NCBI GenBank assembly: GCA_025057975.1
Contig: JANWUV010000004.1
Coordinates: 124,001-188,000 of the forward strand
Direction: 5' to 3'
Source: Chloracidobacterium sp.
GTDB lineage: Bacteria > Acidobacteriota > Blastocatellia > Chloracidobacteriales > Chloracidobacteriaceae
Length of the DNA stretch: 64,000 nt
Each line of letters begins with the position of its first letter. Position 1 is the stretch's first letter. The notes beneath the pieces are model-generated. The model was not told the origin of the DNA and did not search any database. It worked only from the letters and a program-made list of their open reading frames with translations. Made by a program: the position numbers and the translations under genes. Below, piece by piece: positions 253-61,097 of the stretch.

Positions 253-2001
253 TCAGCGCGTTACAAATGGGATATAGCGCGGGATTTCACCCATGATCGC
301 GCGCGCCAAAAGTCGAGCCTGAATTTCAAACACCCGACGATAACTAACCTGATAGCCAAAGACCGGATGCGTCACCAACTGATCAAGACGGCGCTCAAAA
401 GCCTCGATAAACGTTTTGCGTCCATTCGGTTTCAGTGCAAAAGCCCCACCACGCTCAATAAAATCTGAAGGGCTAATCTCACCGTTGTTAATGACCGTAA
501 TCACAACCGAGTCCGCCACCAACGGGCGAAACTCCTCCATCAAATCAAGCGCCAAAGCCGGACGCCCATAGCGCGGCTGATGGTAAAATCCCAGATAAGG
601 ATCAAAACCAACGCCAAGCATCGCCACCAGCATTTCCTTAACCAACAAACTGTATGCAAACGAAAGCAAAGCATTGACCGGGTCCTTCGGCGGACGACGA
701 TTGCGCCCCGTAAAATCAAACGGCGGGGTGTCCTCCGGCGGCAGCTTGAACATGGTCGGAAAATGCTCGAAGTAAGTCCGCGCCGCACTCCCCTCAACCC
801 CTAAAAGCGACGCGAGCGCATCCGAACGTTCAGCCGCCGCGCGCAACGCCGCTAACTGCGCCAATACTTCCGACGAAAGCCCACGCCCGTTACGCCGCAG
901 CAACAAACGGCTGTTGCGAATCTTGCCGCCGACAAAATCCTTCGCCAACCGCAGGCATACCGCCGGGTCAGCCGCCGCCTGAAACTGTCGGCGGCGCAAC
1001 TCAATGTTTTTGTGCGGCGGCGGCGCGGTGACCGCCTGCAACCATCCCCCGTAGCTCAAGTGCAATACCGGAATCTCACGGCTCGCCAACTCGCGCAGCG
1101 CCTGCGCCGAAATCTGGACGTTCCCAAACAAATTCACCTGATTGACTTCCAGCAGCCGTACGGCGTCCACCGTTTGCCCCTTGTCGCGGATTTCCAGTAC
1201 ATCACCCTTGAGACCCAGCGTATAACCCTGCCCCTGAACGTAAACCGCCTTGTTGTCGTCACGCGCAGGCATCAACCGCCGAACCTCGCGCAGCGAAGGC
1301 GCCGGCAACGCCTCCAGCGGCGGCGCAAGTTCCGGCGACGCTTCGGCGACAGGGGCTTGCCCACTCGCTTCCGCCTTCCGCAAATGGTTGATTTCATCCG
1401 GCAAACAAACGCCGACCAGCGAACAACGCGGACACTTGTTGGAGTGAACCAGCGGGGGCGGCGCGACGCCCGACGCCGCCAACGCCCGCGCATCCGCCAA
1501 CAGTCGCCGCGTCCGCGCCTCCAACTCCGGCGTAAACTCAACCCGGACGCGCGTTTTGTCCGCCGCGTAGTAAATCACGCCGTAACTCGAAGCGTAGCCG
1601 TTGGCGCGCAGCAAAAGCCCCTGCAAACACACCTGAATGCGCTCCGGCTCCCATGCGCCTTCCGGCAAGTCCGGGGCCGCGCCCCGTTTGTAATCCACCG
1701 GCACAAGTTGCCCGTCGTCGCTTTCCAACACGTCAATGACCGCCAGCGCGCCAAGCTCCTCCGAGCCGACTTCCACCGAACGCGCATGAATCGCCGTCTC
1801 CGACGTGACGGCTTCGGCGGCGGGTACGCGCCCGCCTGCATCGTCAACCCGCCGATGGACATATCGCCCCTCGACGACATCCAAATTCTCCGCCCACTCG
1901 CGCTGGACATACTCAAGGTAAAACAAGCGCGGACAATAGACGTACTCGTTGAGCATGCGCGCCGGAAGCAACTCCGGCGACGACGTGACGGCGTTGGGCA
2001 T
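253..2001 (-). CDS. cas4-cas1: Cas4-Cas1 fusion, CRISPR spacer acquisition
   Basis: A 582-residue fusion of the Cas4 nuclease and the Cas1 integrase, which trim and insert new spacers. The start at 2001 (MPNAVTSSPELLPARM) is preceded by GGAGA; the open frame runs further upstream but that part looks non-coding. Cas4 covers about residues 1-230: the first cysteine is in YVYCPRLFYLEY (C23), the RecB-type motif is VPVDYKRG, and the cysteine cluster is HSNKCPRCSLVGVC. Cas1 covers about 245-582 with metal ligands E403 (VEGSAARTYF), H474 (LGFYHQPRYG) and the acidic pair in LMEEFRP (489-490). All catalytic residues are present. Such fusions are characteristic of type I-G (I-U) loci. Confidence 0.96.
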   Translation of the reverse strand: MPNAVTSSPELLPARMLNEYVYCPRLFYLEYVQREWAENLDVVEGRYVHRRVDDAGGRVPAAEAVTSETAIHARSVEVGSEELGALAVIDVLESDDGQLVPVDYKRGAAPDLPEGAWEPERIQVCLQGLLLRANGYASSYGVIYYAADKTRVRVEFTPELEARTRRLLADARALAASGVAPPPLVHSNKCPRCSLVGVCLPDEINHLRKAEASGQAPVAEASPELAPPLEALPAPSLREVRRLMPARDDNKAVYVQGQGYTLGLKGDVLEIRDKGQTVDAVRLLEVNQVNLFGNVQISAQALRELASREIPVLHLSYGGWLQAVTAPPPHKNIELRRRQFQAAADPAVCLRLAKDFVGGKIRNSRLLLRRNGRGLSSEVLAQLAALRAAAERSDALASLLGVEGSAARTYFEHFPTMFKLPPEDTPPFDFTGRNRRPPKDPVNALLSFAYSLLVKEMLVAMLGVGFDPYLGFYHQPRYGRPALALDLMEEFRPLVADSVVITVINNGEISPSDFIERGGAFALKPNGRKTFIEAFERRLDQLVTHPVFGYQVSYRRVFEIQARLLARAIMGEIPRYIPFVTR

Positions 2002-2183
2002 AAGTATTCTCCGTCTGTCTGTACAGAACACTGCCACGCCTTCCGGCGCAGCGCGTGGCGTCAAGCCGCTGCGCCGGGAAGCGGTGGAACGCCGCCGCGC
2101 GCCAAACACTTGACGCGCCTCGACGTAAGAAGCATTCCCATATCTCGAACGGAAAGGCGCGCACCGCGCGGCTTCCGTCGCCC

Positions 2184-3104
2184 CTACGCAACCTTGCGCG
2201 CGGGCGTGAAGTTGGGCGTTTTCCCGACCAAAATGCGCCGGACGCGATAGACCGCCACAATCCCCATTCGGCGCAGCCGTCGCCGGTCGCCGTTCTCAAT
2301 CGGATCGTCCTGCAACGGCGCGAGCGCCAGCAGTGACGGCAACAAGTCGGGCGGGACAAACGGCTCCCACAGCGGCCACGTCCAGCGCGTGTCGTTTGCG
2401 CCGAAGCCGGTGAACCCCAACGTTTTGAGCTTGCCGCCGACCGGCCACGCCGTAAACCACGCGAACGCCTCCAACGCCAGCCGATTGGCGCCGAGCATGC
2501 CGCCGCGCTTCTTGCGCTCCGGGTCGCCCGACGGCTTGCTCCACTGGTAGGCATGACGGCGATCCTCCGACGGATCGAGATGTAACGACTGATTGTCCAG
2601 CGGGTCGGCATAGTCCCACGGTTTGAAAAGCGTTCGGCGCAAGTGCTCGCGCTGCGTCCGCTCCAGAATGGATTTGATGTTGCCAAGGTGATAGTCGCGG
2701 CGCGTCGTCTGAAGCTGACTGGTCGCGTCGGCCCCAACCAGATTGCTTGCGATGGCGGCGAGAAAATCCGCGTCGCGCCGCCGGCTCGCCGTCGCCTCGC
2801 GCCGCACGGCGGCGAAATCTAGGCCGCCCACCGCCTTCAGTTCCTCGTAAAGCCGCGCCGGATGGTCGGGAAGGTTTTTCACAAGCGCCGCCTCCAGCGC
2901 ATCCAAAATGACTTGCTGATTCAACGGCCGCCCGCTGCGTAGTTTGGCCACCCAGCCGCCGTCGTCCGCCGTCCAAGCCAACCCAAGGTCGGGCGTTTCC
3001 GGTCGGTCGCGCAACACGCGCGCCAAACCCAGCGTCGCCAAAAAGCCCAGCGGCGTCGTGCCGTCCAAACCGCGCAACACAAGCTCGTGATAGGTCTGCG
3101 TCAT
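2184..3104 (-). CDS. Short Cas8-like subunit of the type I-G system (candidate)
   Basis: A 306-residue protein between cas3 and cas4-cas1, with GGGAG just upstream of its ATG. The N-terminus LVLRGLDGTTPLGFLATLGL is the kind of small-residue/Pro-Leu opening I associate with Csx17/Cas8-type or Cas3-extension proteins of type I-G loci. The rest is rich in Trp and Arg and shows no nuclease motif. By position it should be the effector subunit not covered by Csb1 (Cas7) and Csb2 (Cas5-Cas6), so it may act in PAM or target recognition. It is much shorter than the roughly 700-residue Csx17 that I know from other type I-G loci. Membership in the cas operon is clear; the exact subfamily is not. Confidence 0.7.
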   Translation of the reverse strand: MTQTYHELVLRGLDGTTPLGFLATLGLARVLRDRPETPDLGLAWTADDGGWVAKLRSGRPLNQQVILDALEAALVKNLPDHPARLYEELKAVGGLDFAAVRREATASRRRDADFLAAIASNLVGADATSQLQTTRRDYHLGNIKSILERTQREHLRRTLFKPWDYADPLDNQSLHLDPSEDRRHAYQWSKPSGDPERKKRGGMLGANRLALEAFAWFTAWPVGGKLKTLGFTGFGANDTRWTWPLWEPFVPPDLLPSLLALAPLQDDPIENGDRRRLRRMGIVAVYRVRRILVGKTPNFTPARKVA

Positions 3105-3147
3105 GATGTTGGCTCCCGGAAAGCGGATTCAGCCCGCGGATCATTTT

Positions 3148-6100
3148 TCATTCACTGAGTAGTCCGCGCTCTTCGTCGGCGCTCGCCTGCTGGTCGGCCA
3201 GCCGCAGGACGGCCTCCAGATACGCTGCGCCCCACCATCCGTAACGCCGCTGCATCCGCCAAAAACGCGCCCCAACGCCCGAATCCAATCGGTGGGGCGG
3301 CGACTTTTCACGCCATGCCGTCGTCAGCGACGCCGTATAAGTCCTCCCCAACAACGCCGCCGTCAGCGTTACGTCCGGCGCGGCAACGTCCGCCACAACC
3401 GGCGCGAAGGGTCGCCCCCGCCCGTGATGTGCGCCGACAAGGTATAGGATGAGGTCAAGCTCGTCGGCGTCAAACGGCCGACCTTTGGGATCGGTTATCG
3501 AATCCCCCACGGCTTCCAGCATTTGTACCGACAACATCTCGTGCCGAAAGCCGCTCGGCAGTCCGGCCCGCTCACGCGCTTGCCGGCGCGCGGCCGGCGT
3601 CAGCGGAAGCGCGTCGGATTTAGCCAGCAAGGTCGTCGGCGTCGCGCCCAGCAACCACGCCTCCGTCCGGTCGGCGCGGCGCAGCAACGCTTGAAATCGC
3701 TCGTCGGCCTTGCCCCAATCGTGTCCCTCCGCCGCCGCAAGCCAGACCTCTTCCCGAATCGTCAGCGGCAGCGCTCGCGCCGTCCGCTGAATTTCATCGC
3801 GGACATGCCGACTGTGCGCCGCCAGCGTCACCGGCGCGTCGCTCGCCAAAAACGAACGCTCATCCTCACCGTCGTCCGCCAGCAGCGTCGCCCACTCCAC
3901 CGCCGTCCCCAGCCGCTTTCGCGTCACAAGGACGTACCCCAGCCCGTCCGGGTAGGGCGCGCGGATGATCCCCAGCGTCGGATCAGCCAGCCGCCTGAGA
4001 TTCGCCGTCAGCAACGAACATTCCGCCGGTCGCTGCGGCGCCGCCTGCGGCAAGCCGGACTCAAGTTCATCCGCCACGGCGCGCAGCGCCGTACGCCAAT
4101 CCTCAAGGTTGAGCGTCGCTTCAGGGTCGGCGATGCGTTCAAACAGCGCCGTCAGCGTGGGCGACGGCGGCCAGCCGGCGGTCAAACTCGGGTGAAGCCG
4201 CACGACGGCGCGATCGCGGGCTTGGACGGCCGCCGGTTCCGCGACATCGCGCGGCGCGTTGGCCGGTACGTGGCCCAGCGCGTCCCAGCCGCCCGCGCCG
4301 ACCGGCAACACCAGCGTATCGCCGGGTCGCAGGTCGTCAGCCGAAGTCAATACGGCGTTGTCTTCCAGTCCGCGCCAGAGCAACCCGCGTCGGGCTTCCA
4401 ACACCGGCGGCGCTTTCTCCGCGGGTTTCGCATCGGCCGCCTCTTCCCCGCCGCCCAGCAGGTCGCCGCTGACATCCTTTGACCGATCATCGCCCGTCAG
4501 CCACCGCCGAAGACGTGACAACGGGACGGTCATACACTCGGCGGCTGTCGGCGGTAGTAGGGAAACCACCTCGCTCCATGTATCAAGCGAAAAGGCGTCA
4601 AGGTCAGCCCGCCAGCACACCTGTACGTCAGGCTCGCCGGGCTGCGGCCCGTGCAGCAACAGCGCTACTTGAGGATCAAGCGCCGGACGCGGGCTGGTTT
4701 GACACAGCAGGTCAAGGTGCGCTGGGAGCAACGCCGCCGCTTCGCGTCGCGCCGTCGGGCCCAGACAGTCGGACGGCAGGCATCCCGCTTCGCCATGACG
4801 CGCAAGAAGCGCGTCAAAAGCGTCAACCCCGAAATCCACCTCGCCCGCCACGGCAACCTGCTGTAACCACGCCCAAGTTTTCGGCAGGGCGTCGCCGTAG
4901 ATTGGATCGGGCTTTTTCGGCTCGACAGCCTTTTCATCCATCAGGATGACCGCCTGCGCGCGAATGGGACGCCCACGCCGGTTAAGTCGCCCGAAGCGTT
5001 GCCGCAAGGCGTCCAAGGCGGCGCATTCTGTGATGAGCGCGTCAAAATCATAATCCGCGCCGACCTCAAGGCACTGCGTCGAGACGACAAAGCTCAAAGC
5101 CGCGCTGCGGTCGGGACGGTCGGGACCAACCAGCGCCGCCAACCGCGCCTGTTGTGCGTCACGGTCGTACGGGCGCATCGCGCCGATGACGAGTTCAACC
5201 ACCGCGTCGGGAAACGCCTTGCGGAGGGCCTCCTCAACCGCGCGCGCTGTGGCCACCCGATTGACAATGACGCCAATCGCCGCCGACGCCGGCGGAGCGG
5301 CGGCGTACAAGGGCAGGTCGGCGTCCTGACGGAACATTTCGAGCAACGCCTTGGCTTCCGCGACAACGGCCTTCGGCATGTCGGCGACCAGCTTGAGCTT
5401 CGCCGGCTTGGCGGCCGTCAGCGCGCGATGCAAACGCGGCGCAGCGCGGTCTGCGGCGTCAAGGCTGAAGCGACGACTGCCGACGCCCTCCGGCGGCGTG
5501 GCCGTCATTGGCACAACCTGCAACGGGGGTACGCCAATTGCCTGCTCCGCCCAGCGCGTCGGGTCAAGGTAGTCGCGGACGGCGGCGAGCGTTTGGAGAA
5601 ACGGCCGGCTCATGTGCGCTTCATCCAGCAAGACAAGGCTGTCGTAGGCGGCCAGTCCGGCCTGAATCGGCGCAGCTGTGTCCGAGACGCCGTAGCCGCG
5701 AAATAGCAGCCGCGAGCCGAACTGGTCAACCGTCGTACACACCACGAGCGGGTGCGTCGCGGAACGCGCCCAACGGTTATCGCGATAAAGACCGCCGCGT
5801 AGTTCCAGAACATCCAGCGGCGGCGCGCTCTCCGGCCGCAGCGTGGACAGCGTGCGCAAAGCGGCGGCCACCCGCGCCAACGTCGGATGCTGCGCCGGGC
5901 GGCGTTCGGCTTCCAGCAATCGCTCCGCCAGACGCAATGCGCGCTGGTAGGCGGCGTCCACAATGACGCGCCGGTTGACGCAGAAGAAGACGCGGCGCGG
6001 CGCCGTTCGCTCCGCCGGCGGCAGCGCCGCCTGACAGGCGAGCGCAAAGACCGCAATGTCAAGCGTCGCCGTTTTCCCCGCGCCGGTCGGCACGTCAATC

Positions 6101-6222
6101 ACCTCCGGCCACGTTCCGGCGACAACCTGCGCCGCCAGCCGACTCTGCCACGGATAGGGCGGTACGCCATGCGCTTCCTGAAAAAACGTCTCAAAGTCAT
6201 TCAGCGTCACAAGCGAGTCCAT
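3148..6222 (-). CDS. cas3: Cas3 helicase-nuclease, helicase-HD order (type I-G)
   Basis: A 1024-residue Cas3, the helicase/nuclease that degrades DNA bound by Cascade. The start at 6222 (MDSLVTLNDFETFF) follows GGGAGG. The helicase is N-terminal: Walker A DVPTGAGKT (43-51), DEAH box LLDEAH (about 198-203), and motif VI QRFGRLNRRG. The HD nuclease is C-terminal: GHDWGK (833-838), RHE (about 893) and GAHHGRG (about 931). The helicase-then-HD order is the reverse of classical Cas3 and is usual in type I-G. All motifs look intact, so the enzyme is probably active. A dispersed GC-rich repeat separates it from csb2 upstream. Confidence 0.95.
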   Translation of the reverse strand: MDSLVTLNDFETFFQEAHGVPPYPWQSRLAAQVVAGTWPEVIDVPTGAGKTATLDIAVFALACQAALPPAERTAPRRVFFCVNRRVIVDAAYQRALRLAERLLEAERRPAQHPTLARVAAALRTLSTLRPESAPPLDVLELRGGLYRDNRWARSATHPLVVCTTVDQFGSRLLFRGYGVSDTAAPIQAGLAAYDSLVLLDEAHMSRPFLQTLAAVRDYLDPTRWAEQAIGVPPLQVVPMTATPPEGVGSRRFSLDAADRAAPRLHRALTAAKPAKLKLVADMPKAVVAEAKALLEMFRQDADLPLYAAAPPASAAIGVIVNRVATARAVEEALRKAFPDAVVELVIGAMRPYDRDAQQARLAALVGPDRPDRSAALSFVVSTQCLEVGADYDFDALITECAALDALRQRFGRLNRRGRPIRAQAVILMDEKAVEPKKPDPIYGDALPKTWAWLQQVAVAGEVDFGVDAFDALLARHGEAGCLPSDCLGPTARREAAALLPAHLDLLCQTSPRPALDPQVALLLHGPQPGEPDVQVCWRADLDAFSLDTWSEVVSLLPPTAAECMTVPLSRLRRWLTGDDRSKDVSGDLLGGGEEAADAKPAEKAPPVLEARRGLLWRGLEDNAVLTSADDLRPGDTLVLPVGAGGWDALGHVPANAPRDVAEPAAVQARDRAVVRLHPSLTAGWPPSPTLTALFERIADPEATLNLEDWRTALRAVADELESGLPQAAPQRPAECSLLTANLRRLADPTLGIIRAPYPDGLGYVLVTRKRLGTAVEWATLLADDGEDERSFLASDAPVTLAAHSRHVRDEIQRTARALPLTIREEVWLAAAEGHDWGKADERFQALLRRADRTEAWLLGATPTTLLAKSDALPLTPAARRQARERAGLPSGFRHEMLSVQMLEAVGDSITDPKGRPFDADELDLILYLVGAHHGRGRPFAPVVADVAAPDVTLTAALLGRTYTASLTTAWREKSPPHRLDSGVGARFWRMQRRYGWWGAAYLEAVLRLADQQASADEERGLLSE

Positions 6223-6235
6223 GCTTCCTCCCTTC

Positions 6236-6280
6236 CCAACCGCAGAAGACACGGAGAGCACGCAGAGGCGCTTTCTCATC
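6236..6280 (+). repeat. Dispersed CCGCAGA...CGCAGAGGCG element between csb2 and cas3
   Basis: The sequence AACCGCAGAAGACACGGAGA followed by GCACGCAGAGGCG recurs with variation at 7876-7915 (inverted), 9664-9698 and, more weakly, 20318-20347 (inverted). It sits in intergenic DNA and touches the csb2 stop. It does not form an obvious hairpin. It looks like a short dispersed genomic repeat rather than a gene. Confidence 0.55.
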
Positions 6281-7847
6281 TTTGGAGCGGCTTGAACAAG
6301 CCATAGCCCATAAACCGTCCCGCGCCGAGCAGAACGGGGCCGACGACCGGCCCGGCGAAGCGCAGGAAGACATGAAGCTGTGGCTTCGGGGCGTTCGCGC
6401 CTTTGGCGAAGTAGGGCGGAAAGCCGTCGCCGAGTCGCGCCTGCGTTGTCGGCGCGTTCGGTTGGCCGCGCAATGGACGGGCCTTGGCGACGGCGCGCGG
6501 CGTCCCGCGCTGCCAACTGGTTGCGCCAAAGTCAATCTCGACCGGTTCGGGCAGTCCGGCGTGGCGACAAGCTTCAAAGATCAGTGCGCCGACTTCCATT
6601 TCCCACGCCGCCCGCTCCTTGACCAAGTGCGCCTTGGGAAAACGATCCAGCACAACGGGCGTGACGCTCGCCCACGTTGTCGCGCCGCGCGGCGCGGCCG
6701 TCCACGTCTCTGGGCGGAGCGTGGCGCGGGCGTCGTCCCAAGCACGTTTGCGTAGCGTCCAGACGCCAAGCCGGCCCAGCTTGAGGGCGACCTCAGCCGG
6801 CTGCCCTTCCGCGTCAACAAGCACCGGCGCCAGCGCCCGACCGCGTTCGCGGCGCGGCACATCCGGTGGAAAGGCCAACGCTACTCCTAGCAGACGACCG
6901 TCGGCGTGTTCGCGTCCGACAAACGGCAGCGGCAGCAGAGCGATGTGGCGGCGTCCGTTGGTCAGCGGTTTCCCGTCAGGGTCATGGCCGCTCAGCCACG
7001 CCGGAGGCGGCTGTGGACAACGGCTCAGAAGCGTCGCCCGGAGCGCCTGTGTGACCATCAGTGCGGCCGTCACCGGCAGGGCGGGGCCGTCAGTTTGCGC
7101 GAGCACGAGCACATCCTGGTCGAAAGCCTCGGTCTTCTCCGGCGGCGACATGCCTACGGCGGCGCGTTGCACAACGTAATCGGTCGCTAGTCCAACGGTG
7201 GGACGGCGGCCGGCCTGAAACGTGTCGCGCAAACGGTCAAGCGAGGGGCCGTTGCGGATGCGGCGGAGTCGGCCGTCGGCCAAGCCAGACGGCGCAGGAC
7301 GCCCATCAGCGTCATCGGGCTCTGGCAGCCAGCACACAAAGCCGTCTGCGAGATGCGGCGGCGCGGTTGGCGTCCACATCTGGACAAGTGACGCCGAATG
7401 CCCTAGCCGCGTCACCTTGGCGCAGAGCCGCGCCAGCGCGTCAGCGTAAATGGCGCTCTTTGGCGCTTCGGGCCAGTGGAGAAAACACGGCGCGTCACCA
7501 ACCCAGACCGTCGGGAAGACGCGCGGCTGCTTGCTGCGCGCCAGCGGGACAGATTGAAGCAGCGCCGTGCCCTCCACCCGGTCGTTGATTGGTACGTAGG
7601 CGGTCGTCACTCGTCGGCGGCCGCCTGCGTCGGCAGGCAGCCAGAGCTGTGGATCGGGGAGCGTCGTCAGCCACTCCAGCGCCGCGCCTTCCTGCGGGTC
7701 TTCGCCAGTCTCAAAAAAAGCCGCCGCCAGCGCCAACCAAACGCGCGCCGGGTGTGGCGGCCACTCAGCCGCCTCACGGTTTGCCGCGTCGGTCGCCCGC
7801 GCGTAGCCGGTCAAGTAACGCCAAGCGATGGTGAACGTTTCTGTCAT
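6276..7847 (-). CDS. csb2: Type I-G Cascade subunit Csb2 (Cas5-Cas6-like)
   Basis: A 523-residue protein of the GSU0054/Csb2 family, understood as a Cas5-Cas6 fusion that processes crRNA and holds the 5' handle. The opening TIAWRYLTGYARATDAANRE and the following EWPPHPARVWLALAAAFFE match the family pattern of an early strand followed by a PPxPxRxxxAL helix. PTTQARLGDGFPPYFAKGA and the C-terminal GPVLLGAGRFMGYGLFKPL resemble the glycine-rich loop seen in Cas6-type RAMPs. The gene lies 94 bases downstream of csb1 and 53 bases upstream of cas3, in one transcription unit. Because it is the only Cas6-like protein seen, it is the candidate crRNA endonuclease for the local system. Confidence 0.9.
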   Translation of the reverse strand: MTETFTIAWRYLTGYARATDAANREAAEWPPHPARVWLALAAAFFETGEDPQEGAALEWLTTLPDPQLWLPADAGGRRRVTTAYVPINDRVEGTALLQSVPLARSKQPRVFPTVWVGDAPCFLHWPEAPKSAIYADALARLCAKVTRLGHSASLVQMWTPTAPPHLADGFVCWLPEPDDADGRPAPSGLADGRLRRIRNGPSLDRLRDTFQAGRRPTVGLATDYVVQRAAVGMSPPEKTEAFDQDVLVLAQTDGPALPVTAALMVTQALRATLLSRCPQPPPAWLSGHDPDGKPLTNGRRHIALLPLPFVGREHADGRLLGVALAFPPDVPRRERGRALAPVLVDAEGQPAEVALKLGRLGVWTLRKRAWDDARATLRPETWTAAPRGATTWASVTPVVLDRFPKAHLVKERAAWEMEVGALIFEACRHAGLPEPVEIDFGATSWQRGTPRAVAKARPLRGQPNAPTTQARLGDGFPPYFAKGANAPKPQLHVFLRFAGPVVGPVLLGAGRFMGYGLFKPLQR

Positions 7848-7875
7848 GACGACTCATCTCCCAACGAGAGAATGG

Positions 7876-7915
7876 CTCTGTGTTCTGCGCGTCCTCCGCG
7901 TCCTCTGCGGTTGGG
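7876..7915 (-). repeat. Dispersed CCGCAGAGGACGC element between csb1 and csb2
   Basis: On the minus strand this reads CCCAACCGCAGAGGACGCGG followed by AGGACGCGCAGAACACAGAG. It is the clearest copy of the element also found at 6236-6280 and 9664-9698. Three copies flank or punctuate the cas operon. Confidence 0.55.
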
Positions 7916-7941
7916 CGGATTTCCTCACTTCTTCCCGTACT

Positions 7942-9243
7942 TCATTCTTCCTGCTTGGCATCCGTCTGGCTCTGCGCCAACCACTGGCTGTTGACGACCA
8001 GCTTGACGAGTTCCGTCGTCGGTCGCAGTTGAAGCGGTTGCTCAAGCCATGGCAGCCCCAACCGCTTGGCCTCGGCGACGGCTTCGCTGAAAAGCGCCAC
8101 GGCTGTGTCGGCGTCAAGCGTTAGGTCGCGCTCAACCTCGCCGGGCTTGCCGAGCAATTCCCAGCGCAGCGGCTCGGTCGGCCAGAGCAAACAACGCGAG
8201 CGCAAATCAAGGCCGGCATCGTCCGCCAAAACAGCCGCGCACAGCCCCAGCGCGGTCAGAACCGTCCGGGCGGCGGCGTCAACCTGCGCGTCATGGCGGC
8301 CGTTGACTGGAAAGCGCAAGCGCCGCAGAGCGGGCAGCGACAAGACGATGGTTTGTTCGGCGAAGTCAATCGTCACGCCGCCGCCAAGGTATTCGCCGTT
8401 CCGGTCGCGTGTTGAGATCGTCGGCGTAACGTTGCCGTGATTGGCTTCCGACGGTCGCCCATCCTCGCCCAGCGTGACAGGTTTACCCTTTTCTTTGACA
8501 GCCTGCGCCGGGTCGAGCGTCCAGCCGGGAGCGACTTCCTGCGCTGCGCGGTAGAGCGGCCCTGCCTTGAGCTGAATCCCAAGCGGATCAATCCGGCTGC
8601 TCGTTTTCGCGCCCAGCACAGCGTTGACGCCGACAATTTCGCTGACCAACGCCCGTTCAAACTTCGCCCCCAAGCCACCCTTCGGCCCGGTCGAATCCCA
8701 CATGCCGAACAGCAGCGCCGTCGGGCACAGCTCAAACAACGGCGTCGCATTGTGGGCGGAAGCTTCGCGCAGCCGCTTGCCGTAGGTGGATTCTCGCTTG
8801 ACATTGGCGCTGCGAAACGGCTTGCCGTCTTCGGCGACAACGCTGTCACGGAGAATGGCGTCCACGACGCGATGCGGCGTTTGCAACGAGGTAATCTTGC
8901 CGATGGGTTCAAGCAGGCGCAGGGGTTCGGGTTGGTCGTCGCCGGGGAAGTACGGTGTGAAGTCCACCTCGATGACCGGCAGGACAAGGCGTCCAGCGTC
9001 GAAGGCTTGCTGGAGCGCCTCCTCCATGCGATTCGCCTGCGATTGGACGGAATCCATCAAGACGCACCGGACGGGGGCGGGGTAGTCGGGCAGGCGGCGT
9101 TCTTCAAGCGCGTACAGCCCGCCTTCGTAGGTCGGCGGAAACACTTTCGTACCAGGGCCGCCGGCGGGTTGCAGTTTGAGGCGGCAACGGAAAGCGGTGG
9201 CGTAGTTGACAGCGTGCCGGAGCTTTTCAAGTGTGATGGTCAT
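7942..9243 (-). CDS. csb1: Type I-G Cas7 backbone subunit Csb1
   Basis: A 433-residue Csb1 (GSU0053 family, Cas7), the subunit that polymerises along crRNA in the type I-G Cascade. The start at 9243 (MTITLEKLRHAVNYATAF) has TTGAGGT upstream; an upstream in-frame extension is less likely. Family features include the PAGGPGTKVFPPTYEGG region, RCVLMDSVQSQANRMEEAL, and ELCPTALLFGMWDSTGPKGG followed by ARFERALVSEIVG-like sequence, which is typical of Csb1. It is the first gene of the cas operon in this window. The operon promoter should lie in 9244-9708. Confidence 0.93.
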   Translation of the reverse strand: MTITLEKLRHAVNYATAFRCRLKLQPAGGPGTKVFPPTYEGGLYALEERRLPDYPAPVRCVLMDSVQSQANRMEEALQQAFDAGRLVLPVIEVDFTPYFPGDDQPEPLRLLEPIGKITSLQTPHRVVDAILRDSVVAEDGKPFRSANVKRESTYGKRLREASAHNATPLFELCPTALLFGMWDSTGPKGGLGAKFERALVSEIVGVNAVLGAKTSSRIDPLGIQLKAGPLYRAAQEVAPGWTLDPAQAVKEKGKPVTLGEDGRPSEANHGNVTPTISTRDRNGEYLGGGVTIDFAEQTIVLSLPALRRLRFPVNGRHDAQVDAAARTVLTALGLCAAVLADDAGLDLRSRCLLWPTEPLRWELLGKPGEVERDLTLDADTAVALFSEAVAEAKRLGLPWLEQPLQLRPTTELVKLVVNSQWLAQSQTDAKQEE

Positions 9244-9708
9244 AGCAAAGACCTCAAGAGCAATAATGGAATGGCGCGCTGCGGCGCATCTCAAATAAAA
9301 ACGCAGCGTTTGCCAAACGATGTCGGCGCACGCACTCCGAATGAAACATCAAGTTGAAGGTGGGAGAGCGTACGGCAAGCTTGCCGCTATGTTTTTGCGT
9401 CAGAGGCGGCGCGGCCGCCATCTGGAAAAGTCGCCTGCGCGTTTTCCACAAGAAACCGGGTGCCACTTCGCCATGGAACAGTATTTCGAGACTGCGCGGG
9501 CGTCTTCGCCTACAGAGATAAGGCGAGTGCAGGTTGGTGGAACTGCGCTACAGTCTGGATTGTGGCTCTCGTCAGCATCCGAGTTGTGAAGGAATGCTTG
9601 ACCTCATAAAACGACCTGCAGAGAAAGGCTTACATGCTCAAGCCGACCCAGGCTGGAGTTATTGCCGCAAAGGAGGCAGAGCGCGCAGAGGCGTTTCCCT
9701 CGTCCTTA
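9244..9708. other. Non-coding region upstream of the cas operon
   Basis: No convincing gene. It holds the presumed cas operon promoter (not identified), a copy of the CGCAGAGG repeat at 9664-9698, and a short imperfect duplicate (about 9583-9606) of the 3' end of cobO. That duplicate shares GTTGTGAAGG-ATG-TTGACCTC with 9747-9770. Confidence 0.5.
9664..9698 (+). repeat. Dispersed GCCGCAAAGGAGGC...CGCAGAGGCG element
   Basis: The sequence GCCGCAAAGGAGGCAGAGCG followed by CGCAGAGGCGTTTCC is a diverged copy of the elements at 6236 and 7876, in the same orientation as the first. Confidence 0.45.
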
Positions 9709-54996: not shown

Positions 54997-55362
54997 GGTA
55001 GTGGGAAGGTGCGCCTACAGCTGAGGGGGAGTGAAGGGGAGTGGGGAATAGATGTGGCGGCGGAGACTTTGCGACATTGGCGGCCGTGCTTCCGCTGCCA
55101 GCGCTTGCTTGCAGCAACCAAAAACGCTTACTGTGCCGGACGCCAGCTGGCGGTAGGCGTACCTCCGCCTGCCAGCCAACCCGTTGGCTAACCCCGTCCA
55201 CGCCCCAAAAGGGGGTAGGTTAGCCAACTGGGGAAGTCCTTTCTTTGAAAAGAGTTAGCTTTTGGCGTGCCGGCGGCGGCTTGTGCCGTTGCCGGTCGTG
55301 CCGGTCGGGTTAGCCAAAAGGGGCTATTTGGCTATTGACAGCAAAGGGGTTACGAGTGCAGG
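54997..55362 (+). promoter_or_regulatory. Presumed CRISPR leader region
   Basis: The stretch left of the first repeat has no gene. The array polarity (repeat 3' end ATTGAAAC, degenerate repeat at the right) puts the leader here. It contains several short inverted repeats built from GTTAGCCAA/TTGGCTAAC-like words (55185-55235 and 55309-55335) and a TTGACA at 55335-55340, but no convincing -10 box was found. Confidence 0.5.
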
Positions 55363-58300
55363 CTCTGGATTGAAGACGCGCTTACAAGCGGATTGAAACT
55401 CGGCCGCGCCGGACGGCCGGAAGCAAGAGAGGAATCTGAGAATCTCTGGATTGAAGACGCGCTTACAAGCGGATTGAAACCTTGGCGGCGTCGCGCTTGG
55501 CGCGACCTACCCCTTTTTTTCCTCTGGATTGAAGACGCGCTTACAAGCGGATTGAAACGGCCGGAGTTACTAAAGCGTACCAATACATCCCCGGGTTAGC
55601 TCTGGATTGAAGACGCGCTTACAAGCGGATTGAAACTTGCGCGCACAAGCGTTGTGCGCGCTTCCTTGCGCGCGAAACTCTGGATTGAAGACGCGCTTAC
55701 AAGCGGATTGAAACCTCTTTGGAAGCCGCGCGACGCCGAGCGGCGTCGGCGGCCTCCTCTGGATTGAAGACGCGCTTACAAGCGGATTGAAACAAAGCTT
55801 GGTCCCCTACTTCGAGCTTTACTTGTGCTCGGTCTCTGGATTGAAGACGCGCTTACAAGCGGATTGAAACTTCTAGCGCGCCGTGACGGTAGGCGCGAAG
55901 TACTAACTGCTCTGGATTGAAGACGCGCTTACAAGCGGATTGAAACTACAGCCCCGGGTTTGGTATAACCGCGGAATTGAGAATGTACTCTGGATTGAAG
56001 ACGCGCTTACAAGCGGATTGAAACTCGTCGTAAGCGAACGGCGCTTCAATTTCCGCTCCAATCCCCTCTGGATTGAAGACGCGCTTACAAGCGGATTGAA
56101 ACTCCGGGTCCGGTGAGGACCGCGGAGTTTAGAATGTATTTCACCACTCTGGATTGAAGACGCGCTTACAAGCGGATTGAAACAAGGACTCATCCCCAGG
56201 CTGGAGATGGACCTGAATACGGTCAACTCTGGATTGAAGACGCGCTTACAAGCGGATTGAAACGAGAGAAGCTCCGCCGTCGCTTGGTGTCCGACGGCGG
56301 AAATGCTCTGGATTGAAGACGCGCTTACAAGCGGATTGAAACCTGATAGCCTCGGCGAGTGAAGCGCGTTGAATCGCCGAGGCAACTCTGGATTGAAGAC
56401 GCGCTTACAAGCGGATTGAAACACAGCCCGAATTCAAGGTCTTCGAGCTGGGGCTGGATTTCTCCTCTGGATTGAAGACGCGCTTACAAGCGGATTGAAA
56501 CAGGGCTTGGTCGTTGATCTCTAGGGTCACTTGAACCCTATTAACTCTGGATTGAAGACGCGCTTACAAGCGGATTGAAACGTGATTAGCGTGTACTGAA
56601 ATACTCCGGGTCCAGTGATGACTCTGGATTGAAGACGCGCTTACAAGCGGATTGAAACTACCGCTGCGTTTAATAGATACCGCATCTCTGCCTCTCCACT
56701 CTGGATTGAAGACGCGCTTACAAGCGGATTGAAACGACTTCAATCTGCAGACTAAAGCTTGGTCCCCTACTTCGAGCTCTCTGGATTGAAGACGCGCTTA
56801 CAAGCGGATTGAAACCCCTAAAAGGGCGGACAACAAATCCGCCGTCGGTTGCTCTGGATTGAAGACGCGCTTACAAGCGGATTGAAACTACTTATTGCTT
56901 GACTTGAAAATCGTCTTGCTCTCCAGCGCACGCTCTGGATTGAAGACGCGCTTACAAGCGGATTGAAACAGGGTTATTTACTTTTTGAAGAGGGTCTTGC
57001 CCTCCAACACGCCTCTGGATTGAAGACGCGCTTACAAGCGGATTGAAACGTAAGTGGCTTGTACTGATAAGGACCCGGAAAGACCTCTGAAACTCTGGAT
57101 TGAAGACGCGCTTACAAGCGGATTGAAACAACAAATCCGCCGTCGGTTGGTGTCCGATGGCGGAAATATACTCTGGATTGAAGACGCGCTTACAAGCGGA
57201 TTGAAACGCTTCAGCCCAGGCACAGGCCTGGGCCGGTGTAATGAGTTCCTCTGGATTGAAGACGCGCTTACAAGCGGATTGAAACCAAAGTCTTTTAACT
57301 CCATAACCCTCCGTATTTACCGCCCTACTCTGGATTGAAGACGCGCTTACAAGCGGATTGAAACTATTCTAGGCGAGTGAGAATGCCGAACTCGAGGTCC
57401 CCGAGTTCTCTGGATTGAAGACGCGCTTACAAGCGGATTGAAACGTCGGAGAGAAGCTCCGCCGTCGGCTTGTGCCCGATGGCCGAGCTCTGGATTGAAG
57501 ACGCGCTTACAAGCGGATTGAAACATGAACCTGTATGCGGTTTACTTCAACTCTCCGACCCAGCAGCTCTGGATTGAAGACGCGCTTACAAGCGGATTGA
57601 AACTCAAAACCTCCGTCTTCATACTTGCCTCCAATGAAAACCGCTCTGGATTGAAGACGCGCTTACAAGCGGATTGAAACCAAAATAACCCTGGATTTGG
57701 TATGACTGCTGCGTTTAATAGGTCTCTGGATTGAAGACGCGCTTACAAGCGGATTGAAACCCGCGCGTTGGCGCGGCCTCTGTGTTTACCCTATCCCGGC
57801 GCTCTGGATTGAAGACGCGCTTACAAGCGGATTGAAACAACACGGCGTAGTCGGCGCTAAAGTCAAAGGTAAGCTTATGCTCTGGATTGAAGACGCGCTT
57901 ACAAGCGGATTGAAACCAGTGCCTGGTCGCCGACCTCTAGACTGATTTGTATTCTGTTGCCTCTGGATTGAAGACGCGCTTACAAGCGGATTGAAACGCT
58001 ACTCGTACGTGACCTTGCATCCCTGTTGACGGATCTCTGGATTGAAGACGCGCTTACAAGCGGATTGAAACGTGTTCCCGGCGATTATTGTTAGTTTCTT
58101 CATAAGCACCTCCTCTCTGGATTGAAGACGCGCTTACAAGCGGATTGAAACCTACGCTTGCCTGCCGACAAGGAACGACACGAAACAGTAACCACTCTGG
58201 ATTGAAGACGCGCTTACAAGCGGATTGAAACGGGCCTGGTCCCCGACATTAAGGGTCACTTGGACCCGGTTTACCTCTGGATTGAAGACGCGCTTACAAG

Positions 58301-61021
58301 CGGATTGAAACGAGTTCTTGCTTGAACTGGTACGTGTTCCCGGAGATTACCGCTCTGGATTGAAGACGCGCTTACAAGCGGATTGAAACCCGACATTAAG
58401 GGTCACTTGGACCCTATTAACTTCAACTTCCCCTCTGGATTGAAGACGCGCTTACAAGCGGATTGAAACGTCAAAATGCCCAGCTCAAGGTCTTCGAGCT
58501 GGGGAACCACTTCTCTGGATTGAAGACGCGCTTACAAGCGGATTGAAACGCAGTGCCTGGTCGCCGACCTCTAGGGTTACTTGAACCCGGTTTCTCTGGA
58601 TTGAAGACGCGCTTACAAGCGGATTGAAACGAAACCGGCGGCCGTACGTCCTGTTGGACGCCGGCCGCCGGCTCTGGATTGAAGACGCGCTTACAAGCGG
58701 ATTGAAACGTCATGATACCGAACTCGAGATCCTCGAGTTCGGGAGTCAACTCCTCTGGATTGAAGACGCGCTTACAAGCGGATTGAAACGGTAGGGGTTA
58801 TGACTCGCCTATTCTAGGCGAGTCATGATACCGCTCTGGATTGAAGACGCGCTTACAAGCGGATTGAAACATTTTACTTCGGCGCGCGTTACCCGCGCGT
58901 CGAAGAAGCCGGCTCTGGATTGAAGACGCGCTTACAAGCGGATTGAAACGAACACTCCGGGTCCAGTGAGGACCGCGGAGTTCAAAATGCTCTGGATTGA
59001 AGACGCGCTTACAAGCGGATTGAAACCAGCACAGCTAGGCGTTAGTGTTAAGACATTTTGCTGTTGCAATCTCTGGATTGAAGACGCGCTTACAAGCGGA
59101 TTGAAACCATCCTCTCAAACTCGACAGGTTCGCCGTCATACAAACAACCCCTCTGGATTGAAGACGCGCTTACAAGCGGATTGAAACGCAGGCGGTTGAC
59201 TTCGACTGTCCGCCCTAGAAGGGCGGACTCTGGATTGAAGACGCGCTTACAAGCGGATTGAAACGTTAAGTTCTCGGCCGCGCCGGACGGCCGGAAGGAA
59301 GTGAGCTCTGGATTGAAGACGCGCTTACAAGCGGATTGAAACCTGTATTCTTCGGTTTTTCCTAAAACCCGAACCTTGTCCGGGTCCTCTGGATTGAAGA
59401 CGCGCTTACAAGCGGATTGAAACCTGTTGACCTCAACGGGTTTGCCGAAGAGGTCGGCCAACCTCTGGATTGAAGACGCGCTTACAAGCGGATTGAAACC
59501 GCCCTAACGGGCTTTGAAGCGCGCACTGAAGCGCCCGTTCCTCTGGATTGAAGACGCGCTTACAAGCGGATTGAAACGCCGCGTACGCGGCTGGCGTTGC
59601 GTGCAACACAATGTCCGACGCTCTGGATTGAAGACGCGCTTACAAGCGGATTGAAACTTTATTTCCTAAAAATTGTTCGTCCTTCTAGCGCCCGAAGCGC
59701 CTCTGGATTGAAGACGCGCTTACAAGCGGATTGAAACAAGCGTCCGTCCTTCTAGCGCCCGAAGCGCTAGAAGGAGCAGTCTGGATTGAAGACGCGCTTA
59801 CAAGCGGATTGAAACTTTTCGGCCGCGCCGGGCGCGCTCTTGCGGTGAAGCCAATGCCCTTCAAGCCTGACCCTCTGGATTGAAGACGCGCTTACAAGCG
59901 GATTGAAACTTTTCGGCCGCGCCGGACGGCCGGAAGGAAGCGAGAACTCTGGATTGAAGACGCGCTTACAAGCGGATTGAAACGGCTGGTAAACGTAAGG
60001 GCCGGGGAAAACTGTGGAGATTAATAAACTCTGGATTGAAGACGCGCTTACAAGCGGATTGAAACACCCGCCTATTCTAGGCGGGTAAGGAGGCCAAACT
60101 CCAAGTCCTCTGGATTGAAGACGCGCTTACAAGCGGATTGAAACTCACCTTGCCGCCGCCACTCAAGCGGCGCAAGTTCTCCTTGGCTCTGGATTGAAGA
60201 CGCGCTTACAAGCGGATTGAAACCTTCCTTTCGCGCCGTCACATGTGTGACTAGCCGCGCGAACTCTCTGGATTGAAGACGCGCTTACAAGCGGATTGAA
60301 ACGACCTCAACCCCGGCCGCCGGCCGGGTCTTAAGTCTGGCGACGACTCTGGATTGAAGACGCGCTTACAAGCGGATTGAAACTCAAAGTCGTTTCGTCA
60401 ATCGTCCAAACCTTGCGCCCGGCATCCTCTGGATTGAAGACGCGCTTACAAGCGGATTGAAACGCTGAAGTTCCACCGCTGTCCGGTTCACTGGGACCGG
60501 GCAGCTCTGGATTGAAGACGCGCTTACAAGCGGATTGAAACGGTTGTGCATTTCCCTAAGAGAGGTTATCGAACTCGCAAGAGTCTGGATTGAAGACGCG
60601 CTTACAAGCGGATTGAAACCATTGCTTGCACCTCCTCGCGTTAGATGATTCCATTCTACTCAACTCTGGATTGAAGACGCGCTTACAAGCGGATTGAAAC
60701 GGTAGTGGCGCTTCTGTCGGGATCGCGAAAGAAGCTGGTCGTCCTCTGGATTGAAGACGCGCTTACAAGCGGATTGAAACCCGGCAGCCGGCTTGTCGCA
60801 TCTCGTGGATCAACCGAGAGAAACTCTGGATTGAAGACGCGCTTACAAGCGGATTGAAACTAGGGGCGGGAGTTATTTACTTTTTGAACAAGGTCCTGCT
60901 CTCCACTCTGGATTGAAGACGCGCTTACAAGCGGATTGAAACTCGTTCGTTGTTCGGTTTTGAACGGTTGCCAGTTGAGTTTGACTCTGGATTGAAGACG
61001 CGCTTACAAGCGGATTGAAAC
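55363..61021 (+). CRISPR. Large CRISPR array: 72 near-identical repeats, 71 spacers
   Basis: By hand count there are 72 copies of a 36-base repeat that begins TCTGGATTGAAGACG, has CGCTT-AC-AAGCG as a small hairpin in the centre and ends GCGGATTGAAAC. A C precedes nearly all copies (37-base form); G replaces it at 59779 and 60583. GGATTGAA occurs twice within each repeat. Spacers are about 36-46 bases, with outliers of 57 (59816-59872) and 37 (59910-59946). The repeat is unusually uniform across 5.6 kb. The ATTGAAAC 3' end and the degenerate terminal repeat place the leader left, so transcription is plus. No cas gene adjoins it; the nearest are about 46 kb away. About half the spacers come from one gene family (see findings). 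Confidence 0.99.
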
Positions 61022-61061: not shown

Positions 61062-61097
61062 CTTTAGTTGAAGCTGCACTTACAAGCAGATTAAAAC
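61062..61097 (+). CRISPR. Degenerate terminal CRISPR repeat
   Basis: 36 bases aligned end to end with the repeat, with about 10 mismatches; CTTACAAGC is retained and it ends AGATTAAAAC. It lies two bases from the hemN stop. Decay of the trailer-end repeat supports a leader on the left. Confidence 0.85.

Follow-up and report, generated by a model that had tools for sequence, protein, structure and literature searches.

Almost all type III spacers of Thermus thermophilus under phage phiFa are complementary to transcripts, and the available part of that report places them in an early hot region, with no protospacer-adjacent motif (PAM), and attributes the bias to selection (PMC7515739). In one collection of phage genomes viral AcrIII-1 is reported as the commonest ring nuclease (36/28,114), and it is rare in type III loci (7) (PMC12409355). 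RNA viruses and viroid-like RNAs are also matched by bacterial spacers; the portions of these reports at hand stress type III systems that contain a reverse transcriptase, and leave most Obelisk-matching spacers without an assigned type (PMC10847044, PMC13096302). Here I describe two arrays of clustered regularly interspaced short palindromic repeats (CRISPR), arrays A and B, in a genome of Chloracidobacterium sp. (GCA_025057975.1). More than a third of their spacers encode pieces of one small gene, a predicted ring nuclease of the DUF1874 (AcrIII-1) family, so that the arrays would be the record of an arms race. The window, that is, the whole stretch analysed, comprises 64,000 nucleotides (positions 124,001-188,000 of contig JANWUV010000004.1), and coordinates without a prefix refer to it. 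Elsewhere G000 denotes the source genome, C a contig and G006 a congener, while spacers of array A are numbered S and those of array B, T.

Array A occupies 55364-61021 on the forward strand and consists of 72 exact copies of the repeat TCTGGATTGAAGACGCGCTTACAAGCGGATTGAAAC and 71 spacers. A cytosine precedes the repeat in 70 of the 72 copies, and with that base counted the spacers measure 37-58 nt, mostly 41-45. Array B (78 repeats, 77 spacers; G000:C4:216811-222970) lies on the opposite strand 29 kb past the end of the window. It has the same repeat and a near-identical leader side, the leader side of array A (55059-55361, forward strand) being 96.7% identical to it over 303 bp. No spacer is common to both arrays or duplicated among the 148. 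In the source genome PF08960 matches a single intact gene (G000:C15:41934-42236); its four weak matches are two within array A and two at C4:221062-222261, which is array B.

Because short peptides could otherwise be over-read as members of the family, the spacers were kept out of the profile used to detect it. A hidden Markov model (HMM) and a position-specific scoring matrix (PSSM) were built from 14 DUF1874 proteins (four from the genus, three from genomes of the same class, five viral and two from plasmids) and scored on six-frame translations of the spacers. At a threshold of at least 2 bits the HMM recognised 21 of 71 spacers in array A and 17 of 77 in array B (38/148 together), against none of 575 in eight control arrays, which do not include a repeat in L063 or the small arrays of loci L071 and L072. 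The PSSM at 16 or more gave 24/71, 16/77 and again 0/575. All 40 of these strong PSSM matches lie on the reverse strand, antisense to the coding strand. At the looser threshold of at least 10 the controls match as well (58/575), and weak matches therefore carry little meaning. The strict set, defined as the strong matches plus spacers that overlap them at the DNA level, comprises 31 spacers of array A and 24 of array B (55/148). Seven more fit by eye only: S22, S42 and S59 in array A and T15, T23, T38 and T59 in array B. The earlier note, made from the letters of the window alone, had put the number in array A at about 35 of 71, about 30 of them strong, which is about right (31 strict, 34 by eye). 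Twenty of the 21 peptides that it listed are found exactly where it placed them, and the one at 55947 is present without an end residue.

The strict spacers of array A all read on the reverse strand. The highest PSSM scores belong to S12 (ISAVGHQATAELL, with the GH motif; 56264-56306; 36.1), S33 (GNRIQISLEVGDQAL; 57917-57961; 32.2), S27 (SAIGHKPTAELLSD; 57445-57488; 30.6), S41 (NRVQVTLEVGDQAL; 58550-58594; 29.9), S23 (YISAIGHQPTADL; 57130-57171; 29.1), S37 (VNRVQVTLNVGDQA; 58232-58275; 28.2), S18 (ELEVGDQALVCRLK; 56736-56779; 26.4), S15 (VNRVQVTLEINDQA; 56502-56545; 25.5) and S28 (LLGRRVEVNRIQVH; 57525-57567; 25.1). They are followed by S46 (ILNSAVLTGPGVF; 58950-58990; 24.2), S65 (CPVPVNRTAVELQ; 60464-60505; 24.2), S11 (VDRIQVHLQPGDES; 56184-56227; 23.9), S10 (VVKYILNSAVLTGPG; 56103-56147; 23.7), S60 (DLEFGLLTRLE-stop; 60066-60108; 23.2), S39 (GEVEVNRVQVTLNV; 58390-58433; 22.4), S06 (DRAQVKLEVGDQA; 55794-55834; 21.6), S19 (QPTADLLSALLG; 56816-56852; 21.2) and S63 (VVARLKTRPAAGVEV; 60303-60347; 20.2), and then by S26 (ELGDLEFGILTRLE; 57365-57408; 19.9), S49 (SALLGRTVEVNRL; 59188-59228; 17.3), S52 (LADLFGKPVEVN; 59424-59463; 17.2), S08 (YILNSAVIPNPGL; 55947-55988; 16.8), S30 (DLLNAAVIPNPGLF; 57681-57724; 16.8) and S17, from the start region (GEAEMRYLLNAAV; 56659-56699; 16.7). 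Overlap with strong spacers brings in S03 (PGMYWYALVTPA; 55559-55600), S14 (QPQLEDLEFGL, of the C-terminal part; 56423-56465), S16 (VITGPGVFQYTLI; 56582-56622; PSSM 13.6), S24 (ELITPAQACAWAE; 57208-57249), S40 (EVVPQLEDLELGIL; 58470-58513), S43 (ELTPELEDLEFGIM; 58709-58753), a long palindrome that shows compensatory changes when its stem is compared with that of S40, and S44 (58790-58834), in which GIMTRLE-stop lies inside a hairpin and is followed by downstream bases. The concentration that the note had seen over 55794-60504 is real, although S03 and the whole of array B lie outside that extent.

A chimeric protein typed together from the spacers matches PF08960 with an E value of 6.6e-18, and so, with single spacers scoring far above the 575 controls, the family named by the note stands. 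Among structures in the PDB the chimera matches 2j6b (AFV3-109), 2j85 (STIV B116), 2x4i and 6scf, the last of which I take to be SIRV1 gp29; the matches also include two CRISPR-associated proteins and one that is likely due to chance. The SxxGH segment is present in S12, S23, S27 and T19 and aligns, by way of the chimera, with AFV3-109 and STIV B116; its histidine is presumably the catalytic residue. Both the start and the stop of the target protein were sampled, giving a length of about 102 amino acids. The strong pieces all share a strand, and wherever two of them overlap their frames agree. These comparisons support the view that the spacers are fragments of genes for DUF1874/PF08960 ring nucleases, proteins that would be expected to cleave cyclic tetra-adenylate (cA4).

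Many distinct homologues have been sampled, as the note had supposed. Overlapping DUF1874 spacers have a median identity of 76%, counting only pairs that pass an overlap score, and just 4 of 120 overlaps in the strict set are identical; where six spacers cover one place, each differs from all the others. Among the 40 strong spacers mismatches fall at codon positions 1, 2 and 3 in the ratio 175/66/403, and of 464 codon differences 303 are synonymous and 161 non-synonymous. This excess of third-position and synonymous changes shows that real, functional and diverged genes were sampled. The host's own DUF1874 copy is no evident target, since the closest spacer agrees with it in 29 of 44 bases. 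Five of seven genomes of the genus (the source genome, G001, G004, G005 and G006) have a DUF1874 gene in the chromosome, likely a cellular, Crn2-like ring nuclease; that of the source genome (G000:C15:41934-42236, locus L001) is separated from a cmr locus by about 17 kb.

The ring nuclease gene is not the only locus sampled repeatedly. At an overlap score of at least 11, 180 pairs of spacers agree in strand and 13 are opposed, against none in shuffled sequences, and clustering joins 100 of the 148 spacers into 16 clusters that sum to 1257 nt, leaving 48 singletons. Four DUF1874 clusters hold 51 of the 100, and spacer density varies from cluster to cluster. By eye, other clusters cover a tiny hydrophobic open reading frame (ORF), MFLFFLLVLALRALEGRT..., the end of that ORF, a stretch with the promoter-like pattern TTGACA-17-TACTAT followed by the ORF MELKDF..., and, separately, MKKLTIIAGNTYQFKQEL. 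The tiny ORF, sampled mostly by array B, is represented in array A by the adjoining spacers S55 and S56 (59658-59779 with the intervening repeat included, reverse strand; MFLFFLLVLALRALEGRT...FKK-stop, by eye). Thus the note's picture of an array concentrated on one gene is borne out, but the concentration spans two arrays and other small loci recur too. The motif GGCGG(C/T)AAA seems to stand 5' of the ribosome site of three small target ORFs (T07, T12, T61, T58, T72 and S25) and looks like an intercistronic element common to them. Two further features of array A were noted: S57 (59816-59873) is 58 nt long where all other spacers of the array measure 37-46 nt, and a degenerate repeat-like remnant, read by eye, lies past the leader-distal end (61064-61097, forward strand).

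To which CRISPR system do these arrays belong? The cas operon of the window (253-9294) is of type I-G (Cas4-Cas1, Cas3, GSU0053, GSU0054 and Cas8g), and is adjoined by an array of its own, array C (C4:117228-123740), with a different repeat in 91 copies and spacers of 33-40 nt. Array B sits between a Cas1 gene, with a Cas2-like ORF alongside (by eye), and a Cas_NE0113 CARF gene. This Cas1 is 83% identical to the type III Cas1 of G006 and 36% identical to the I-G Cas1. The matching array of G006 (L056:15098-16833, 22 spacers) lies between a cmr operon of type III-B, with a cas6-like gene (by eye), and that Cas1, and thus repeat and Cas1 together link arrays A and B to type III-B in a congener. 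The source genome has two cmr loci, on contigs C2 and C15, and Cas10 of both carries GGDD. In flanks reconstructed from neighbouring variants rather than true protospacers (66 and 71 spacers) there is no strict PAM motif; a TTN PAM would show as the sense-side triplet NAA, which is seen in 4 of 66.

Same-strand recurrence within an array reaches 40 of 2485 pairs in array A, 56 of 2926 in array B and 5 of 231 in the type III array of G006 (none opposite), compared with 2/4005 in array C and 4/3321, 1/903, 4/2016, 6/4851, 2/1176 and 14/7875 in the other controls. The G006 array also recurs on a few small loci, on one strand (for example spacers 7/17/18, 6/8 and 10/12). Start sites outside DUF1874, when tested, were sense in 9 cases and antisense in 1 in A and B; with 5 and 0 in array C, the test does not separate the arrays. 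Elsewhere, a weak Cas1-like gene of about 306 amino acids, different from the three strong Cas1 matches of the source genome, was seen at G000:C23:8792-9433 (L086) and G006:C2:537172-537807.

I was unable to identify a protospacer in phages, in plasmids, or in IMG/VR and GTDB, the last two searched with a few peptide and DNA words only, and in one set of these the conserved words were biased, since pieces of the chimera had been re-used between rows. The spacers of array C likewise found no match in phages, and the absence of DNA matches for A and B is therefore no evidence either way; it also means that virus, transcript polarity and function are inferred. Four candidate target elements (L021, L087, L088 and L089) were rejected as distant carriers of DUF1874 and a fifth, L096, as a chance match in another frame. 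The claim that such concentration on one anti-CRISPR gene is undescribed agrees with the accessible parts of the open literature on DUF1874/AcrIII-1 and on spacers against one gene, early genes or anti-CRISPR genes, where nothing comparable was found.

The explanation that I favour, at a probability of roughly 60%, is that an RNA-reading type III-B (Cmr) system keeps its memory in arrays A and B, and that selection favoured spacers antisense to a small region dominated by the ring nuclease. The population would long have met many related elements, perhaps viral, whose ring nucleases belong to the AcrIII-1/Crn2 family. Spacers would be acquired from any place and either strand, but the cells to survive best would be those whose CRISPR RNA (crRNA), given the presumed direction of array transcription, pairs with an early and strongly made transcript. 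The ring-nuclease message may be such a transcript, and its silencing would also prevent clearance of the cA4 alarm, so that repeated rounds against new variants could have piled up tiled antisense spacers. Repeated selection of this kind would explain the strand, the missing PAM, the concentration and the variety alike.

Several points weigh against this explanation. The cmr operons of the source genome lie on contigs other than those of arrays A and B, and no leader match of these arrays to G006 is among the matches listed. The 22 spacers of the G006 array gave no DUF1874 match in the profile and PSSM scan, and so the system does not aim at DUF1874 as a rule. The flank test rests on variants rather than true protospacers, and even there a mild preference for G is seen at the second base of the sense side (31/66). 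Early expression is assumed, because no protospacer was found. Spacer T35 lies mostly upstream of the RNA start predicted from its promoter-like pattern (by eye), where an antisense crRNA would be of no use if no transcript entered from upstream. Finally, selection by a type III-B system does not predict that the targets should be rich in hairpins.

They are unusually so. Folding was expressed as a z score against dinucleotide shuffles, and its mean is -1.33 in array A and -1.22 in array B, with 30% of spacers in each below -2. The corresponding means are -0.16 for array C, -0.23 for 463 spacers of six other arrays, -0.50 (standard error 0.28) for the type III array of G006, -0.07 for the window itself and +0.15 for the host DUF1874 gene. 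The single-stranded RNA (ssRNA) phages MS2 and Qbeta give -0.90 and -0.73, and phages with other genomes (double-stranded DNA, single-stranded DNA or double-stranded RNA) less: phi6 L -0.34, phiX174 -0.29, P23-45 -0.21 and RM378 -0.08. In the stems of DUF1874 spacers, Watson-Crick pairing survives double changes in 65 of 136 cells, which are not independent, compared with 27/122, 28/93, 20/107, 25/104, 32/104 and 12/62 in six slid controls; single changes break the pair in 371 cases and keep it in 130. A search of Rfam at E values up to 1 returned five weak matches, none of which reached the gathering score. On balance the stems appear to reflect structure selected in the targets, and that structure could be the mark of genomes made of RNA or of messages that evade crRNAs by folding.

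If the former, the targets would be ssRNA phages or small, structured RNA replicons, equipped with a ring nuclease to counter an RNA-reading type III system: one strand is sampled since the genome is RNA, and DUF1874 dominates since a replicon measures only about 1-4 kb. Folding like or beyond that of MS2 and Qbeta, Watson-Crick retention above all six slid controls and the 1257 nt total of the clusters agree with this. Yet mismatches are nearly as frequent at paired bases (0.23) as at unpaired ones (0.25), and single stem changes yield G-U and A-C equally (111 and 106). Sense and antisense also fold equally, but since the same holds for MS2 and Qbeta the strand of the structure has no power as a test. 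T35 contains one tight sigma70-like pattern (TTGACA-17-TACTAT) where 0.055 is expected, a looser pattern showing no excess, and in T70, an old spacer of array B (G000:C4:217403-217448), TTTTT comes after a long hairpin, as in an intrinsic terminator (by eye); both features point to DNA. No polymerase or Oblin piece was noticed by eye in the sense frames, with no profile search made. Nor was a CRISPR-linked reverse transcriptase found: PF00078 matches one gene in the seven genomes of the genus (G000:C18:60505-61143, L083), and the Cas1 of array B matches Cas1 alone. Acquisition by an RT-Cas1 route through L083 was rejected, as its neighbours, an Avd-like helical bundle and a formylglycine-enzyme-like gene, give it the layout of a diversity-generating retroelement (all by eye). 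I therefore hold RNA replicons to be an unlikely source, and a slightly less likely one in the full form in which the arrays record a family of ssRNA phages or viroid-like RNAs, shielded by a ring nuclease and memorised without a CRISPR-linked reverse transcriptase. That the acquisition machinery itself favours stretches that form hairpins, the gene being sampled for that reason, seems a good deal more doubtful. The G006 array, whose Cas1 is the 83% identical one, does show more perfect stems of at least 7 bp than the other control arrays (3 of 22 spacers against 2-4%), but its mean z is only the -0.50 given above, the 14 oldest spacers of A and B average only -0.49, and a hairpin preference does not give one strand. 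Moreover, compensatory changes between variants assign the stems to the targets.

Concentration might also arise from even sampling if the targets were tiny DNA elements of 1-2 kb, such as a small plasmid, a satellite or a single-stranded DNA virus. By arithmetic, a gene of about 310 nt would receive 55 of 148 spacers if about 0.9 kb were sampled evenly, the 16 clusters with their small total point the same way, and T35 resembles a promoter. Even sampling does not give one strand, however, 48 spacers are singletons, the density of clusters is uneven and phiX174 is not rich in hairpins, and I regard such elements as improbable. Very improbable indeed is membership of array A in the type I-G system of the window, with primed adaptation behind the strand bias. 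The I-G cas genes do lie on the same contig and within the window, but a separate array with another repeat and other spacer lengths belongs to their operon, for which reason arrays A and B were rejected as part of that system; array B has a different Cas1, and the reconstructed flanks contain no PAM of the TTN type that I take to be that of type I-G.

If type III-B selection is indeed the cause, natural type III memory converges on the gene that would turn the alarm off, in dozens of variants, and it becomes testable whether type III immunity needs early silencing of an anti-CRISPR message. The spacers could then also be used to detect elements of the genus that have not been seen so far, and the hairpin-rich, compensating targets raise the question of whether RNA is folded to hide from crRNAs or whether the genomes are themselves RNA. 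Of the described systems, that of T. thermophilus under phiFa has, in the available part of the report, the same transcript-complementary, concentrated and PAM-less spacers (PMC7515739), a likeness that arrays A and B share in part by inference. There a single phage was used in laboratory infection, whereas here two natural arrays face many variants, one dominant ring-nuclease gene and hairpin-rich targets. The proteins AFV3-109, STIV B116 and 6scf, of the AcrIII-1/Crn2 family, resemble the target in family match, size (about 102 amino acids from start to stop) and SxxGH motif; they differ in that the target is known from spacer pieces alone, and the chimera assembled from these is 44% identical to the host copy. 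With the spacers reported against RNA viruses and viroid-like RNAs, the accessible parts of those reports suggest a common link to type III, made in some of them, and structured or RNA targets; here, by contrast, an RNA genome of the targets is conjectural, and no CRISPR-linked reverse transcriptase was found.

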